Program-made: the position numbers and the translations under genes
The notes under the pieces: generated by a model
Database searches by the model: none
What the model was told of the DNA's origin: nothing
The model's input: the letters and a program-made list of their open reading frames with translations, nothing else
In this document: piece by piece, positions 7,073 through 38,284 of the stretch
Position numbering within the stretch: the stretch's first letter is position 1
How the letters are laid out: the number at the start of each line of letters is the position of its first letter
NCBI GenBank assembly: GCA_903884455.1
Contig: CAISEW010000015.1
Span: 1 to 54,959, forward strand
Length of the DNA stretch: 54,959 bases
Reading direction: 5' to 3'
Source: an uncultured Chloroflexota bacterium
GTDB taxonomy: Bacteria; Chloroflexota; Dehalococcoidia; GIF9; AB-539-J10

Positions 7073-8020
7073 CTAAATCAAATGCTTGCGGCGCAAAAAA
7101 TAGAGTATTGCGCCGATAAGCGCCGCAATTATCAATAATAACCCTGCAAAGGTCTGAAGGCTGCCTTTCTCCAAACCTCCGGGTAAGATGAGGTAAATAC
7201 AAGCAACAACCACAAAGGGCAGCCCAATGGCTAATAAAATAGCAATGGCGCGGATAGCACGGTTGGAACGGTAACCACTCAGGAGATAATCCGAGTCTTT
7301 GAATACCTCTATTACCTCTTTGTATTCATCCAGGGTATTACATACTTTGTTCACATGGTCCATCAGGTCACTAAAATAGAGGGTCAAATCTATCTTAGAA
7401 TACGGCTTTAGTTTAGCTTCCAGTTCCGCGAGAAGCGCTCGGGTCGGGAACATCACTTGTCTCTGGTCAATAATGTCTCTCCTGAGACTGCTCAATGGGC
7501 TGGCCACTTCAACATCTTCCCGGAAGACACCCTCTTCGATATCTTCCATTAAGCCGAGAATCTTGTCCAGTACCTTAAAATACTGGTCTATTGTCCGGTC
7601 AAATATCTGGTACAGCAAGTAGCCAGAGCCCTGGCTCAAATACTGCTCACGAGTTTCCACGTTAGTTTCGCACTCCTGGAATAGCTCGCCCGCGACCTTA
7701 AACTCCGGAGGTCTGATTGTCACCAAGTAATTAGGGCCAACAAATGCTGACCATTGTTTCCTTGAACTTACCCGCCTCGCTTTCTCAAATACTGAGAGAT
7801 GAAAGATAACAAAGAGGTATTCCGGGTATTCTTCTATTTTGGAAACCTGCCGGGGACTCAAAGCGTCCTCAATATCCAGAGGGTTGAAACCATAATGCTC
7901 CACTAAATACTTCGCTGCTTCTTTGGTCGGTTGAATGATATCAACCCACGTGAAGTCCCCGGAGGTTATTGTCTTTATGTTAACCTGGTTCTCTTTGGTA
8001 ACTTTATTGGATTTGGCCAT
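7073..8020 (-). CDS. CorA-family divalent cation transporter-like protein lacking the GMN signature
   Basis: 315 residues with CorA architecture: a long cytoplasmic alpha/beta and coiled-coil N-terminal part (RQYLSQGSGYLLYQIFDRTIDQYF, LEDIEEGVF, RRDIIDQRQVMFPTRALLAELE, LMDHVNKVCNTLDEYKEVIEVF) and two C-terminal helices followed by a basic RRK tail. The usual YGMN at the end of TM1 is replaced by CIYLILPGG, so the canonical selectivity signature is absent. It may be a GMN-less subfamily, an altered transporter or an accessory. It is convergent with mgtA. ATG 8020 has only a weak ribosome-binding site. Confidence 0.82.
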   Translation of the reverse strand: MAKSNKVTKENQVNIKTITSGDFTWVDIIQPTKEAAKYLVEHYGFNPLDIEDALSPRQVSKIEEYPEYLFVIFHLSVFEKARRVSSRKQWSAFVGPNYLVTIRPPEFKVAGELFQECETNVETREQYLSQGSGYLLYQIFDRTIDQYFKVLDKILGLMEDIEEGVFREDVEVASPLSSLRRDIIDQRQVMFPTRALLAELEAKLKPYSKIDLTLYFSDLMDHVNKVCNTLDEYKEVIEVFKDSDYLLSGYRSNRAIRAIAILLAIGLPFVVVACIYLILPGGLEKGSLQTFAGLLLIIAALIGAILYFLRRKHLI

Positions 8021-34817: not shown

Positions 34818-36020
34818 TTATGCGATAACCTTGCTAATCACACCAGCACCAACTGTCTTGCCACCCTCCCTGATAGCAAAGCGCAATCCTTGTTCCATAG
34901 CCACAGGGTAAATGGTCTTAATCTTCATGTGCGCCAGGTTGTCACCGGGCATAGCCATCTCCACACCCTCGGGAAGACTTATTTCGCCCGTAACGTCCAG
35001 GGTTCTGATAAAAAACTGGGGTTTATAACCATTGAAGAAAGGTGTATGCCTGCCGCCTTCCTCCTTGGTCAAAATATATACTTCAACCTCGGCTTCGGTA
35101 TGAGGTTTGACCGTCCCTGGCGCTGCTAGAACCTGACCCCGTTCTATTTCATCTCGTTCTACGCCTCGCAATAGGACTCCAACAGCATCGCCGGCCTCTG
35201 CTTCGTTCATGGTCTTATGAAACATCTCTAAGCTAATCGCCACTGTTTTCTTCGTCTCCTTTAATCCTACTATCTCTATTTCATTACCGCCTTTGATCAC
35301 CCCTCGTTCTACTCGGCCTGTAGGCACAGTCCCCCGTCCTTTGATACTGAAAACATCTTCTATCGGCATCAAGAATGGTTTGTCCCTTTCCCTCTTGGGC
35401 ATAGGAATATAACTATCTATAGCGTCCAACAACTTCCAAATTGCTCCACACCAGGGGCACTCTCTTTTTCCACAGCCACATTCCAGAGACTTAAGAGCAC
35501 TTACCCGCACAACAGGGACTTCATCACCAGGAAAGTTATACTTTTTCAGTAAGTCTCGAACCTCCATCTCTACCAAATCTAACAACTCCGGGTCATCTAC
35601 CAGGTCTACCTTATTGAGAGCCACCATTATGCGAGGAACGTTCACCTGCCGGGCTAGAAGGATGTGTTCCCTGGTTTGTGGCATAGGACCGTCATCAGCA
35701 GCGACTACCAAAATAGCCCCATCCATCTGAGCAGCTCCAGTTATCATGTTCTTGATATAGTCAGCATGGCCGGGACAGTCAACATGGCAATAATGACGCT
35801 TCTCAGTCTCATACTCAATATGGGAAATGGCAATCGTTAGTCCACGAGCTTTTTCTTCAGGAGCATTATCTATGGAATCATAGGGTCGGAATTGTGCAAA
35901 GCCTGCTTTCGATAATACCTGTGTCATGGCTGCAGTCAGTGTGGTTTTCCCATGGTCAACATGTCCTATAGTGCCCACATTGATATGTTGCTTAACACGC
36001 TCATAAACTTTCTTAGCCAT
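34818..36020 (-). CDS. tuf: elongation factor Tu
   Basis: 400 residues. G1 [10 protein letters not shown], switch region [10 protein letters not shown]3 DCPGHADY, G4 NKVD, effector domains 2 and 3 ending [12 protein letters not shown]-like [14 protein letters not shown]. Near residue 180 the family SALKAL..E segment is replaced by a Cys-rich insert, [11 protein letters not shown], that could bind zinc. AGGAGG before ATG 36020. tRNA-Thr lies directly upstream. Confidence 0.97.
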
Positions 36021-36041: not shown

Positions 36042-36114
36042 AGCCCACAACCAGATTCGAACTGGTGACCCCATTCTTACCAAGAATGTGCTCTACCTAC
36101 TGAGCTATGTGGGC
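36042..36114 (-). tRNA. tRNA-Thr (GGU anticodon)
   Basis: Minus strand: acceptor GCCCACA / TGTGGGC, D arm TAGCTCAGTAGGTAGAGCA, anticodon stem-loop CATTC TTGGTAA GAATG (GGU), T loop GTTCGAATC. No encoded CCA. Its 5' half is duplicated at 38031-38072. Confidence 0.95.
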
Positions 36115-36267
36115 ATTATGCACGAAAATATATTCTAAGTCAACATGGACAAACAGTCAATAAAGTATGGATTTTCTACTTTAGAACGTGATGTACATGT
36201 TTAGGCAAATTAACGGAGGGATTTTAAATCAGTGGCTGGCTGAAAGTCAAGTTAGGAGGTGCGGAAG

Positions 36268-36567
36268 ATGGCAAGTCTAGCTGAAAAGGTATACATGGAC
36301 TTGATGGCAAGAGGCAAGGATATTGAGACTGCTAGATACATTGGAAAGTATCTCAATATGCAGTTGTATCATGTGCGTAAGTATATTATGAGTGCTGGTT
36401 GGGTGTTCCCAGGCTGGGTGTCTTGGTCACGGTGGTTTAAACAACATTATGGCGTTTATCCTGACCAGATGTACCCTGGTATATTGGTAAAGCTGGCGCG
36501 TATGCCTAAGAGCGTGCGGGATAAGATTATCCTGCCCGAGTTGATGAAAATGGAAAGTTCATCGTGA
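36268..36567 (+). CDS. hypothetical protein, 99 aa, in the tRNA-Thr insertion
   Basis: Starts at ATG 36268, AGGAGGT 9 nt upstream. Sequence ASLAEKVYMDLMARGKDIETARYIGKYL suggests an N-terminal helix-turn-helix-like bundle; later part is rich in Trp and Tyr (GWVFPGWVSWSRWFKQHYG). Family not recognised. Next gene starts 27 bp after its stop. Confidence 0.6.
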   Translation: MASLAEKVYMDLMARGKDIETARYIGKYLNMQLYHVRKYIMSAGWVFPGWVSWSRWFKQHYGVYPDQMYPGILVKLARMPKSVRDKIILPELMKMESSS

Positions 36568-36593
36568 TTCATTTGCTAGTTGAAGGAGGTAGT

Positions 36594-36836
36594 ATGGATT
36601 CTAAAGATAATAGGCTAGGTTTGAATGTAGAGCGTTTGCAGAAGATAGGTCGCAAGGTTAGTAGGTTATTGAGGAAAGAATGTAAGGACCCGATTGAAGC
36701 GATGTATGTGCTGAAGGCTATTTTATATCTGTTGAGATGTGAGCTTAGTGAAGCTGGTGTAGTTCTTGGCAATGAGGCTCAATTAGACGCTGAACTGACT
36801 AGTATGATTGATAAGGCTATGAAGAAAAGCGAGTGA
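36594..36836 (+). CDS. hypothetical protein, 80 aa, in the tRNA-Thr insertion
   Basis: Starts at ATG 36594 with AAGGAGGT upstream. Helical: LNVERLQKIGRKVSRLLRKE, DPIEAMYVLKAILYLLRCEL. No motif recognised. Part of a tight plus-strand operon. Confidence 0.6.
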   Translation: MDSKDNRLGLNVERLQKIGRKVSRLLRKECKDPIEAMYVLKAILYLLRCELSEAGVVLGNEAQLDAELTSMIDKAMKKSE

Positions 36837-36892
36837 AGCAAGAGAGAGATGTGAACCTTACATGAGTATTGGAGAGGTGGTAGAATTAATGT

Positions 36893-37549
36893 ATGGCATT
36901 TGTGGGTCTTGTCTTTATCATAGTGGGTTTGGTGCTGTCGTTGGTGGCTGGGGTAATAATGATGGCTGGCATGCCTTGGTGGATGTGGTTGGTAGGTCCT
37001 ATCATGACAGGAGTTGGAGTAATAATAAGCCTTCCGGGTTGGTTGCAGATGACAATAGGGAGCGCGAAGTTGATAGTGGAGTTTGACAGGATTGTGAAAG
37101 AGGAGAAAAGGAGCTTAGCTATATTTATGAAGAACCCGCAGTTGGGAGATGCGTCTAAAGGCAAGAAATCAATTTGGAGAAAAATTGGAGTTAAGAGACG
37201 AAGCATAGAAAGTCTGGTAGTATCGTTTCGCATTTCTGAAGTCGGCACTGAGAAGATAGTGGTCCCTGATGTGAATGCAAGGATTTATTCGGATGCTGAT
37301 TCATCAGGGCAAGGGAATTGGCAAGTTACAGTTCCACCAACTCTGAGGTTTGCGACAAGTGTGATAGCAGCTCTGTGGAATGAAAATAGGAAAGTGGCTA
37401 TTGTGCCTGGGGATAATGATAGAGCACAAGTAGAATTACCCAAAGGAGTTTACCGAATTGATGCGACTTTTGTAGTGGATGGCGAACCACAGAAGAAGTC
37501 CAGGGAGTTCATTGTTGGGGATACTGCAGATAGTCTTCATTGGAGATGA
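36893..37549 (+). CDS. hypothetical membrane-anchored protein, 218 aa
   Basis: Two N-terminal transmembrane helices (AFVGLVFIIVGLVLSLVAGV; WLVGPIMTGVGVIISLPGW) then a soluble region with KEEKRSLAIFMKNPQLGD and a beta-rich C-terminal part (VPDVNARIYS, QVTVPPTLRF, LPKGVYRIDATFVVDGE) that may be an immunoglobulin-like fold. Family unknown. Followed by a terminator-like hairpin. Confidence 0.6.
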   Translation: MAFVGLVFIIVGLVLSLVAGVIMMAGMPWWMWLVGPIMTGVGVIISLPGWLQMTIGSAKLIVEFDRIVKEEKRSLAIFMKNPQLGDASKGKKSIWRKIGVKRRSIESLVVSFRISEVGTEKIVVPDVNARIYSDADSSGQGNWQVTVPPTLRFATSVIAALWNENRKVAIVPGDNDRAQVELPKGVYRIDATFVVDGEPQKKSREFIVGDTADSLHWR

Positions 37550-37559
37550 TAGCATCAGA

Positions 37560-37582
37560 CCCCATTCTCATCTGGAATGGGG
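37560..37582 (+). terminator. Rho-independent-like hairpin in the insertion
   Basis: Perfect 8-bp stem CCCCATTC / GAATGGGG with a 7-nt loop, 11 bp after the stop of the 218-aa gene. An ATTTTT run comes about 15 nt later. Confidence 0.5.
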
Positions 37583-37642
37583 CGATTGACAGAGATTTTT
37601 GTCAGGATATAATGAAGTTGAGTCATATATAAGGAGGGTAAT

Positions 37643-37903
37643 ATGCGAGGAAAGTATAGAGGTTTAGTTGTTGCTTCGACGCTGTTGAGGGTTATTGCGG
37701 TTGTTGTGATGGTTGTAGGTATTGGGTGGTGCTTGTGGTCTTCTATAGGCAGTATCCATGATGGGTTGATGACACTTACTATTGTTCTCGGCATTTGTAT
37801 TTCTTTGTTAACTGGTTTTATGGTTTATTCGTTTGCTGAGGTTATCGACTTATTGCTTGATATAAGGGATGAGGTTCGAGATAAAAATTCTAAGAAGGAA
37901 TAG
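37643..37903 (+). CDS. hypothetical small membrane protein, 86 aa
   Basis: AAGGAGGGTAAT precedes ATG 37643. Two hydrophobic helices (VIAVVVMVVGIGWCLWS; LTIVLGICISLLTGFMVYSF) and a charged C-terminal tail. Family not recognised. Confidence 0.6.
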   Translation: MRGKYRGLVVASTLLRVIAVVVMVVGIGWCLWSSIGSIHDGLMTLTIVLGICISLLTGFMVYSFAEVIDLLLDIRDEVRDKNSKKE

Positions 37904-38007
37904 TGGCAATAGCACTAGTGGATATTGTGGGGTGGCCCGCTTTTACCAAGAAAAGGGAGTTGTATGAGTGGTTGTGGAAATTTCGGGAGAGGATTATTAG
38001 TAATTAA
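37903..38007 (+). CDS. possible micro-protein, 34 aa, overlapping the preceding stop
   Basis: GTG 37903 overlaps the TAG of the 86-aa gene (TAGTG) and has AGAAGGAA just upstream. Product contains DIVGWPAFTKKRELYEWLWKF, a plausible amphipathic helix. It ends about 24 bp before the tRNA remnant, so it could be the truncated start of a longer gene. Weakly supported. Confidence 0.3.
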   Translation: MAIALVDIVGWPAFTKKRELYEWLWKFRERIISN

Positions 38008-38030
38008 GCCCTATGATAGCGTCAGGTCCG

Positions 38031-38072
38031 ATTCTTACCAAGAATGTGTTCTACCTACTGACCTATGTGGGC
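38031..38072 (-). pseudogene. remnant of tRNA-Thr 5' half
   Basis: 42 bp matching 36073-36114 at 40 positions: anticodon stem-loop to the 5' end of tRNA-Thr(GGU). The two changes fall in the D-stem region and the T-arm half is absent, so it is non-functional. Confidence 0.85.
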
Positions 38073-38090
38073 CTCTTACACTTTGTAAAG

Positions 38091-38175
38091 TGGAGGGGGT
38101 AGGATTCGAACCCACGCAGCCCGTAAGGGCGGCAGATTTACAGTCTGCTCCGATTAACCACTCCGGCACCCCTCC
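38091..38175 (-). tRNA. tRNA-Tyr (GUA anticodon)
   Basis: Class II tRNA on the minus strand: acceptor GGAGGGG / CCCCTCC, anticodon stem-loop CAGAC TGTAAAT CTG (GUA), variable arm GCCCTTACGGGC, T loop GTTCGAATC. No encoded CCA. Confidence 0.95.
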
Positions 38176-38211
38176 TTGGCATAACTCTATCAAAAAATGC
38201 TTGAAAAACCT

Positions 38212-38284
38212 AGCCCGAGGGGGGATTCGAACCCGCCAACCTACCGATTACAAATCGGTTGCTCTACCATTGAGCTACTCGGGC
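38212..38284 (-). tRNA. tRNA-Thr (UGU anticodon)
   Basis: Minus strand: acceptor GCCCGAG / CTCGGGC, anticodon stem-loop ACCGA TTTGTAA TCGGT (UGU), T loop GTTCGAATC. First tRNA of the cluster leading to tuf. Confidence 0.95.

Follow-up and report, generated by a model that had tools for sequence, protein, structure and literature searches.

A split tRNA operon with a repeated tRNA half

The window (the whole stretch of 54,959 nucleotides analysed here; G000 in the comparisons below) carries on its minus strand a tRNA-Thr(GGU) gene (36042-36114), which both ARAGORN and Rfam call as an intact tRNA-Thr(GGT), and, downstream of it, tuf (34818-36020, minus strand; taken from the ORF list). The rest of the operon, tRNA-Tyr (38090-38175) and tRNA-Thr(UGU) (38212-38284), was called by the same two programs on the same strand (38090-38284), on the far side of an insert that amounts to 1.96 kb in the window. 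Four ORFs, of 102, 90, 218, and 86 aa, lie in this insert on the plus strand, opposite to the tRNA/tuf operon, just as the initial annotation had described unknown small genes splitting a Thr-Tyr-Thr-tuf cluster. The EF-Tu encoded by the window contains a four-cysteine insertion, which possibly binds metal. The public contigs that match come from Dehalococcoidia/Chloroflexota MAGs.

The insert is bordered by two stretches in the same orientation, 36073-36114 and 38031-38072, which on direct reading are equal at 40 of 42 bases (two mismatches), as had been noted before. A repeat search returned these two copies as the top direct repeat of the window (54 nt, 87%, spacing 1958), and the probability of a match of at least 40/42 arising by chance anywhere in the window is ~6e-13. 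The earlier reading of the left copy as part of an intact tRNA and of the right copy as a remnant also stood, with neither ARAGORN nor Rfam calling a tRNA at the right copy. An intact tRNA gene (36042-36114) and a fragment in the same orientation (38045-38072) are thus present at opposite ends of the insert, with the fragment upstream of the tRNA on the minus strand, as in islands of the 5′-fragment class.

Uninterrupted and occupied sites in relatives

The comparison proposed with the initial annotation was carried out by searching 60 related genomes, complemented by tRNA scans; the counts of occupied and empty sites within the genus leave out G002 and G008. The order tRNA-Thr(UGU)-Tyr-Thr(GGU)-tuf was found uninterrupted in eight genomes of the same genus (G004, G006, G009, G012, G014, G015, G016, and G019), which is again what a 5′-fragment-class island leads one to expect, and likewise in the other genera checked. 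The Tyr-Thr spacer of the empty sites is ~15 nt long. Inserts, ranging in size from ~0.75 to 4.7 kb, are present at the identical point in 10 genomes, the window included. Both junctions lie on one contig in six of these (G000, G001, G003, G007, G013, and G018), and a single junction, at the same base, was found in the other four (left in G005, G010, and G011; right in G017). All genomes are draft assemblies, and the contigs of G005, G010, and G011 end inside the element, so that their right junctions lie beyond the contig end. When the flanks of the window were joined in silico within the core shared by the two junctions, the distance between tRNA-Thr(GGT) and tRNA-Tyr became 16 nt, like that in the empty sites.

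Tandem duplication of tRNA-Thr might also produce a pair of similar copies with the same orientation if one of them was later lost for the most part, in which case the genes in between would be ancestral. Empty sites, however, contain a single tRNA-Thr(GGU) and no genes between; the cargo differs in each genome; the right copy ends exactly at the crossover core, where the element sequence starts; and a recombinase is present in relatives (see below). Tandem duplication was rejected on the basis of the empty-site comparison and retains hardly any probability. The same observations dispose of the two objections raised with the initial annotation, namely that all relatives might share the four genes as ancestral content, and that the 42-bp match might stem from the loss of a second tandem tRNA-Thr gene.

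Origin of the two halves and the crossover core

Beyond the 5′ end of tRNA-Thr, empty sites continue with an CTCCTGCACTTT-like spacer and then tRNA-Tyr. Exactly this ancestral CTCCTGCACTTT-like spacer and tRNA-Tyr lie beyond the right copies of the occupied genomes, whereas the left copies have a different flank, common to occupied genomes only. By this flank comparison, the right piece (38045-38072, minus strand) is the host's own 5′ half of tRNA-Thr(GGU), displaced and decayed, and the left 5′ half (36087-36114, minus strand) is element-borne, its flank being element sequence and not the Tyr spacer of empty sites. The intact gene at 36042-36114 is, by this comparison, a hybrid of a host 3′ half and a 5′ half from the element. 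The left 5′ halves of nine genomes are mismatched to the empty-site consensus at 3 of 252 positions, and the right copies at 22 of 196. Both changes in the right copy of the window fall on one D-stem pair (11-24), which is broken. As the number of changes in the right remnants lies between none (G017, pristine) and eight (G001), the insertions, or their decay, differ in age.

With integration of the usual kind, into the 3′ half, the left tRNA would be the original gene and the element would have brought the right piece; 3′ fragments are indeed the common class (3760 of 3919 islands; PMC4383910). Here, however, the right piece is a 5′ half that runs directly into the ancestral Thr-Tyr spacer and tRNA-Tyr, and what lies 5′ of the left tRNA belongs to the element and is conserved in occupied genomes only. 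This reading was rejected by the flank comparison and is extremely unlikely, which leaves the element as the donor of the 5′ half.

Tyrosine recombinases use tRNA genes as attachment sites, and some cross over in the anticodon stem-loop. At the left junction, TTCTTACCAAGAA (36074-36086), an imperfect palindrome made up of the anticodon loop and inner stem, is common to the host sites and to both junctions of all occupied genomes. At the right end of the element, a comparison of right ends delimited an arm, ATGATAGCGTCAGGTCCGA, followed by the crossover core (38013-38044, plus strand). Judging from these sequences and from established tyrosine-recombinase biology, the exchange would take place in this 13-bp anticodon core. 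According to the earlier proposal, the crossover took place in the anticodon arm and the 5′ half came from the element. This proposal is supported by the empty sites, by the contiguity with the Tyr spacer, and by the in-silico excision, and it is further backed by the cognate integrase genes found at the junction in four relatives.

Positions 36087 and 38045 are T in both window copies and C in all other checked genomes except G001 (left). The host half of the window contains the matching A, so that an A-T pair replaces G-C. The common T suggests either conversion between the copies or an unusual, or adapted, donor.

Integrase and Rep in relatives and their remains in the window

The search for related elements with an integrase, which had likewise been proposed, revealed an intact gene at the same junction in four relatives (G013, G010, G005, and G011). 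It encodes a full tyrosine recombinase of 272-281 aa and starts ~150 bp from the 5′ end of the tRNA. The protein matches the phrog_216 integrase profile (1e-6); R133/R134, K153, H204-x-x-R207, W230, and Y245 are invariant in nine integrase relatives. A predicted model of moderate quality (pLDDT 76, pTM 0.60) gave XerA (Foldseek 3e-7), Brujita Int, Cre, IntI, and lambda Int as the best folds. Thus, by sequence and model, the protein has the R-K-H/x-x-R-H/W-Y catalytic set and the predicted fold of a tyrosine recombinase. Integrase relatives at 32-39% identity are located at other places, and no match to the integrase was found in phage or plasmid records. The only match on a viral contig (L087, IMG/VR) was rejected as a phage carrier, the contig being an apparent chimera in which a phage tail region is joined inside tuf to the locus.

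Behind the integrase gene, G013 encodes a 201-aa Rep (P0002) that matches Pfam REP_ORF2-G2P (31.1 bits; cut-off 27.8) and contains HIH and YIGKY, i.e., both the profile and the HxH and YxxKY motifs of an HUH rolling-circle Rep. A Rep relative (42%) in G005 is incomplete because the contig ends within it, and G010 has the C-terminal end of a Rep.

In the window, the corresponding region is occupied by the 102-aa ORF (36259-36567, plus strand), which, by identity to G013, joins integrase residues 1-23 (ATG at 36268) in frame with the C-terminal part of the HUH Rep. Residues 3-26 of the fusion are 96% identical to integrase residues 9-32, and residues 24-87 are 59% identical to residues 120-180 of the G013 Rep; except for the Y motif, Rep is lost. 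The fusion junction (~36329-36336) lies in an 8-bp repeat, CTGCTAGA. Because CTGCTAGA is found in both int and rep of G013, a single in-frame microhomology deletion removed int and most of rep. The deletion points in G018 and in G003/G007 are different, and the loss of int and rep has, therefore, recurred. The statement of the initial annotation that no integrase is present holds insofar as there is no intact gene, but the 102-aa ORF does start with the N-terminus of the integrase. The window element is a remnant that is no longer able to move on its own.

Taken as a whole, the locus is very probably best explained by a tRNA-targeting element that integrated in the anticodon stem-loop of tRNA-Thr(GGU) and gave the gene its 5′ half. 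A small element, equipped with a tyrosine recombinase, a rolling-circle HUH Rep, and cargo, would recombine with the anticodon stem-loop of the tRNA gene. As the comparison of occupied and empty sites shows, it supplies the 5′ tRNA half together with ~130 bp of upstream DNA, and the 5′ half of the host is moved to the far end, where it decays. The recombinase presumably cleaves at the borders of the anticodon loop, and the near-palindromic core would allow the element to insert in the direction in which the 5′ half is restored.

Mobility and history

At this locus, empty sites can be compared directly with intact and with decayed elements. In the tree of the tuf region, the occupied G005 is sister to the empty G006 (100/100), which requires at least two gains or losses. 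The integrase DNA of G005 and G010 is 92.3% identical, compared with 86.0% for tuf; between G010 and G013 the relation is reversed (87.7% for the integrase, 93.8% for tuf). The placement of G005 and G006, together with these identities, suggests transfer between species, as judged from draft genomes, of which G005 has an estimated contamination of 7%.

Alternatively, a single ancient insertion could have been inherited vertically and have become a fixed exchange hotspot, the exchange proceeding by homologous recombination through the flanking operons and not via the integrase. Such a history would fit the tuf tree, in which eight of the nine occupied genomes group together (weakly supported, 85/87), and the varied cargo retained by several genomes without int and rep. 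It is at odds, however, with an occupied G005 next to an empty G006, with integrase identities that conflict with those of tuf, with right remnants of differing ages (pristine in G017, eight changes in G001), and with the persistence of intact integrases. A lone ancient insertion is, thus, unlikely, and transfer of the element between species is the favored reading.

Probable replacement of the operon promoter

The left end of the element contains a predicted outward promoter, TTGACT-17-TAGAAT (36132-36160, minus strand), which was recognized by its match to the consensus, points toward tRNA-Thr-tuf, and has a −35 hexamer that is invariant in nine genomes. The empty operon has no room for a separate promoter before tRNA-Thr(GGU); the predicted ancestral operon promoter (38340-38312; 11/12 match) is located upstream of Thr(UGU). 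If integration renews the 5′ half of a tRNA gene, the promoter of this gene is necessarily replaced, too. In the proposed mechanism, the outward promoter of the element would take over tRNA-Thr and tuf, and, going by the sequence, the promoter at 36160-36132 may now drive these and the genes behind them in place of the operon promoter. Behind the tRNA lies tuf with the nusG/ribosomal-protein region, and the element probably controls core translation genes in the whole clade. The promoter takeover may account for conservation of the left end long after int and rep were lost. Direct repeats of AGTCAA are present at 36138, 36155, and 36245, the first two of which overlap the predicted outward promoter; the repeats might be integrase arm sites instead of promoter hexamers.

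Cargo and internal att-like sites

Beside the fusion, the window insert contains a 90-aa ORF (36564-36836, plus strand), which on comparison is also present in G018 (85 aa), behind the Rep remnant of that genome, and two cargo genes from the ORF list. The first (36893-37549, plus strand) encodes a 218-aa protein with a hydrophobic N-terminus, which belongs to no family and is not found at this site in relatives; genome-wide tblastn yielded no relatives of it, and family searches gave nothing credible. The second (37643-37903, plus strand) encodes an 86-aa protein predicted to be a two-helix membrane protein. Cargo differs from genome to genome: G013 has Band_7, G007 and the window have small membrane proteins, and G018 has a TIR protein (PADLOC TIR-TM, 5e-79) together with a proteasome-like protease. 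In the G018 insert (L035), an att-like site lies between the TIR-TM defence-like gene and the protease gene, with a core that continues into a second fragment of the Rep C-terminus.

Between the two cargo genes of the window, an internal att-like site (37546-37577, plus strand) consists of the arm ATGATAGCATCAGACCCCA, which matches the terminal site at 38013-38031, and the core TTCTCATCTGGAA; members of this family of sites are present in G001, G007, and G013. A consensus sigma-70 promoter, TTGACA-16-TATAAT (37586-37613, plus strand; 12/12 match), follows, and the same motif lies behind the internal sites of G001 and G013. With a weight matrix of the right end, applied leave-one-out, internal copies were detected in G013, G018, G001, and G007 (two), each at p = 0.003, which is the floor of this test. 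A profile detected a second form of the site, in which a variant core is followed by ATTGACA..TATAAT, a near-consensus promoter; it is present in G001, G007 (two), G013 (two), and the window (37546-37613), and the E-values are inflated for the five sites that built the profile. The strict arm-plus-core pattern occurs at these loci only. Internal sites number approximately one per cargo gene after the first (G013, G007, G018, G001, and the window). A site plus a 56-aa gene is common to G001 and G007, at different positions of the array. Another core-like sequence, TTACCAAGAA at 37940-37949, has no significant arm and was treated as chance or decay.

With att-like sites lying between the cargo genes, the inserts may have grown in a modular and perhaps cassette-like manner, each added cargo module having an att-like site at its end. 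Simple serial accretion, with the internal sites being old element boundaries and without any cassette exchange, has a little less than an even chance of being correct. Tandem arrays with repeated att sequences are known (Dehalococcoides ssrA islands; additive islands at tRNA-Lys), and deletion of int and rep, with the cargo left behind, is frequent; yet, the internal sites come without the tRNA 5′ half that serial insertion into the tRNA would be expected to leave, and most of them precede a shared promoter sequence. Because the tRNA half is missing, cassette-like capture is kept as a possibility. It would amount to a tRNA-anchored, integron-like system, whose recombinase, encoded beside the hybrid tRNA, gathers single-gene cassettes, each with an anticodon-mimic att site and a promoter. 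Such a system is rather unlikely; in it, capture would take place at the internal or terminal sites of the array, so that the tRNA need not be hit again. The number of sites relative to cargo genes and the 56-aa gene that G001 and G007 share at different positions speak in its favor. If the internal att-like sites are active, the modules would represent a compact system for capturing genes, in a group of bacteria from which few mobile elements are known.

Relation to known systems

Of the 3919 islands in Islander, 159 have 5′ fragments and 2083 have anticodon-centred sites (PMC4383910). Restoration of the 5′ half, which the initial annotation had set apart from the more usual restoration of the 3′ half, is thus a minority class already on record, and the locus is a well-documented variant of this rare, already known type of integration. 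It shares with the 5′-fragment islands of Islander a tyrosine recombinase, crossover in the anticodon region, a restored gene, and a 5′ fragment displaced upstream (PMC4383910). Unlike these, the window copy, at 1.96 kb and without an intact integrase, falls below the 2-kb and integrase filters of Islander, and internal att-like sites with promoters are not among the features described in the available part of that account (PMC4383910).

The pTN3-like elements of Thermococcales use the 5′ half of a tRNA gene as attB and express the reconstituted tRNA from their integrase promoter; according to the archaeal review on these elements, use of the 5′ half is uncommon in bacteria (PMC8371274). The family described here resembles them in using the 5′ tRNA half as attB and, by prediction for the window, in expressing the tRNA from an element promoter. 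However, integration of pTN3-like elements splits int, the promoter of which serves the tRNA (PMC8371274), whereas int of the window family is intact in G013, G010, G005, and G011, which sets the family apart from the pTN3-like elements, is read away from the tRNA, and is accompanied by a separate predicted outward promoter.

The ssrA islands of Dehalococcoides, a member of the same class, are alike in having a translation-gene target, tandem modules, repeated att sequences, and varied cargo, but they use serine recombinases, are inserted at the 3′ end of tmRNA, and are much larger (PMC3146451). With integrons, the family has in common a tyrosine recombinase at one end and single-gene units bounded by recombination sites, and IntI is among the fold matches. 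Yet, in place of an IntI-type recombinase and attC, a Xer-like, phage-type recombinase (by fold and by the phage integrase profile) and anticodon-core-like sites were found, and the units of the window family are predicted to carry their own promoter. Tycheposons, according to a secondary source, are large cargo elements of the XerD type that are bounded by a tRNA.

Elements at tRNA-Ile (L092, L094, and L096) encode recombinases of the same family (45-52% identical) and have an anticodon-arm core, CAGTCCTGATAAGACTG. The integrase gene of the L092 element, however, overlaps the 3′ end of the tRNA, i.e., the orientation is opposite to that of the window family. The near-palindromic core may permit both orientations, and the related integrases at tRNA-Ile offer a chance to test the choice of orientation at such an anticodon core. 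In L051/L092 (G007:C30), the reading frame of a related integrase starts within the 3′-terminal part of tRNA-Ile(GAU), and there is no ATG in frame nearby. In L096, on a contig labelled Deltaproteobacteria, the 17-bp tRNA-Ile anticodon core occurs alone (7643-7659), without tRNA halves, 360 bp before a related integrase, and is a possible minimal attP.
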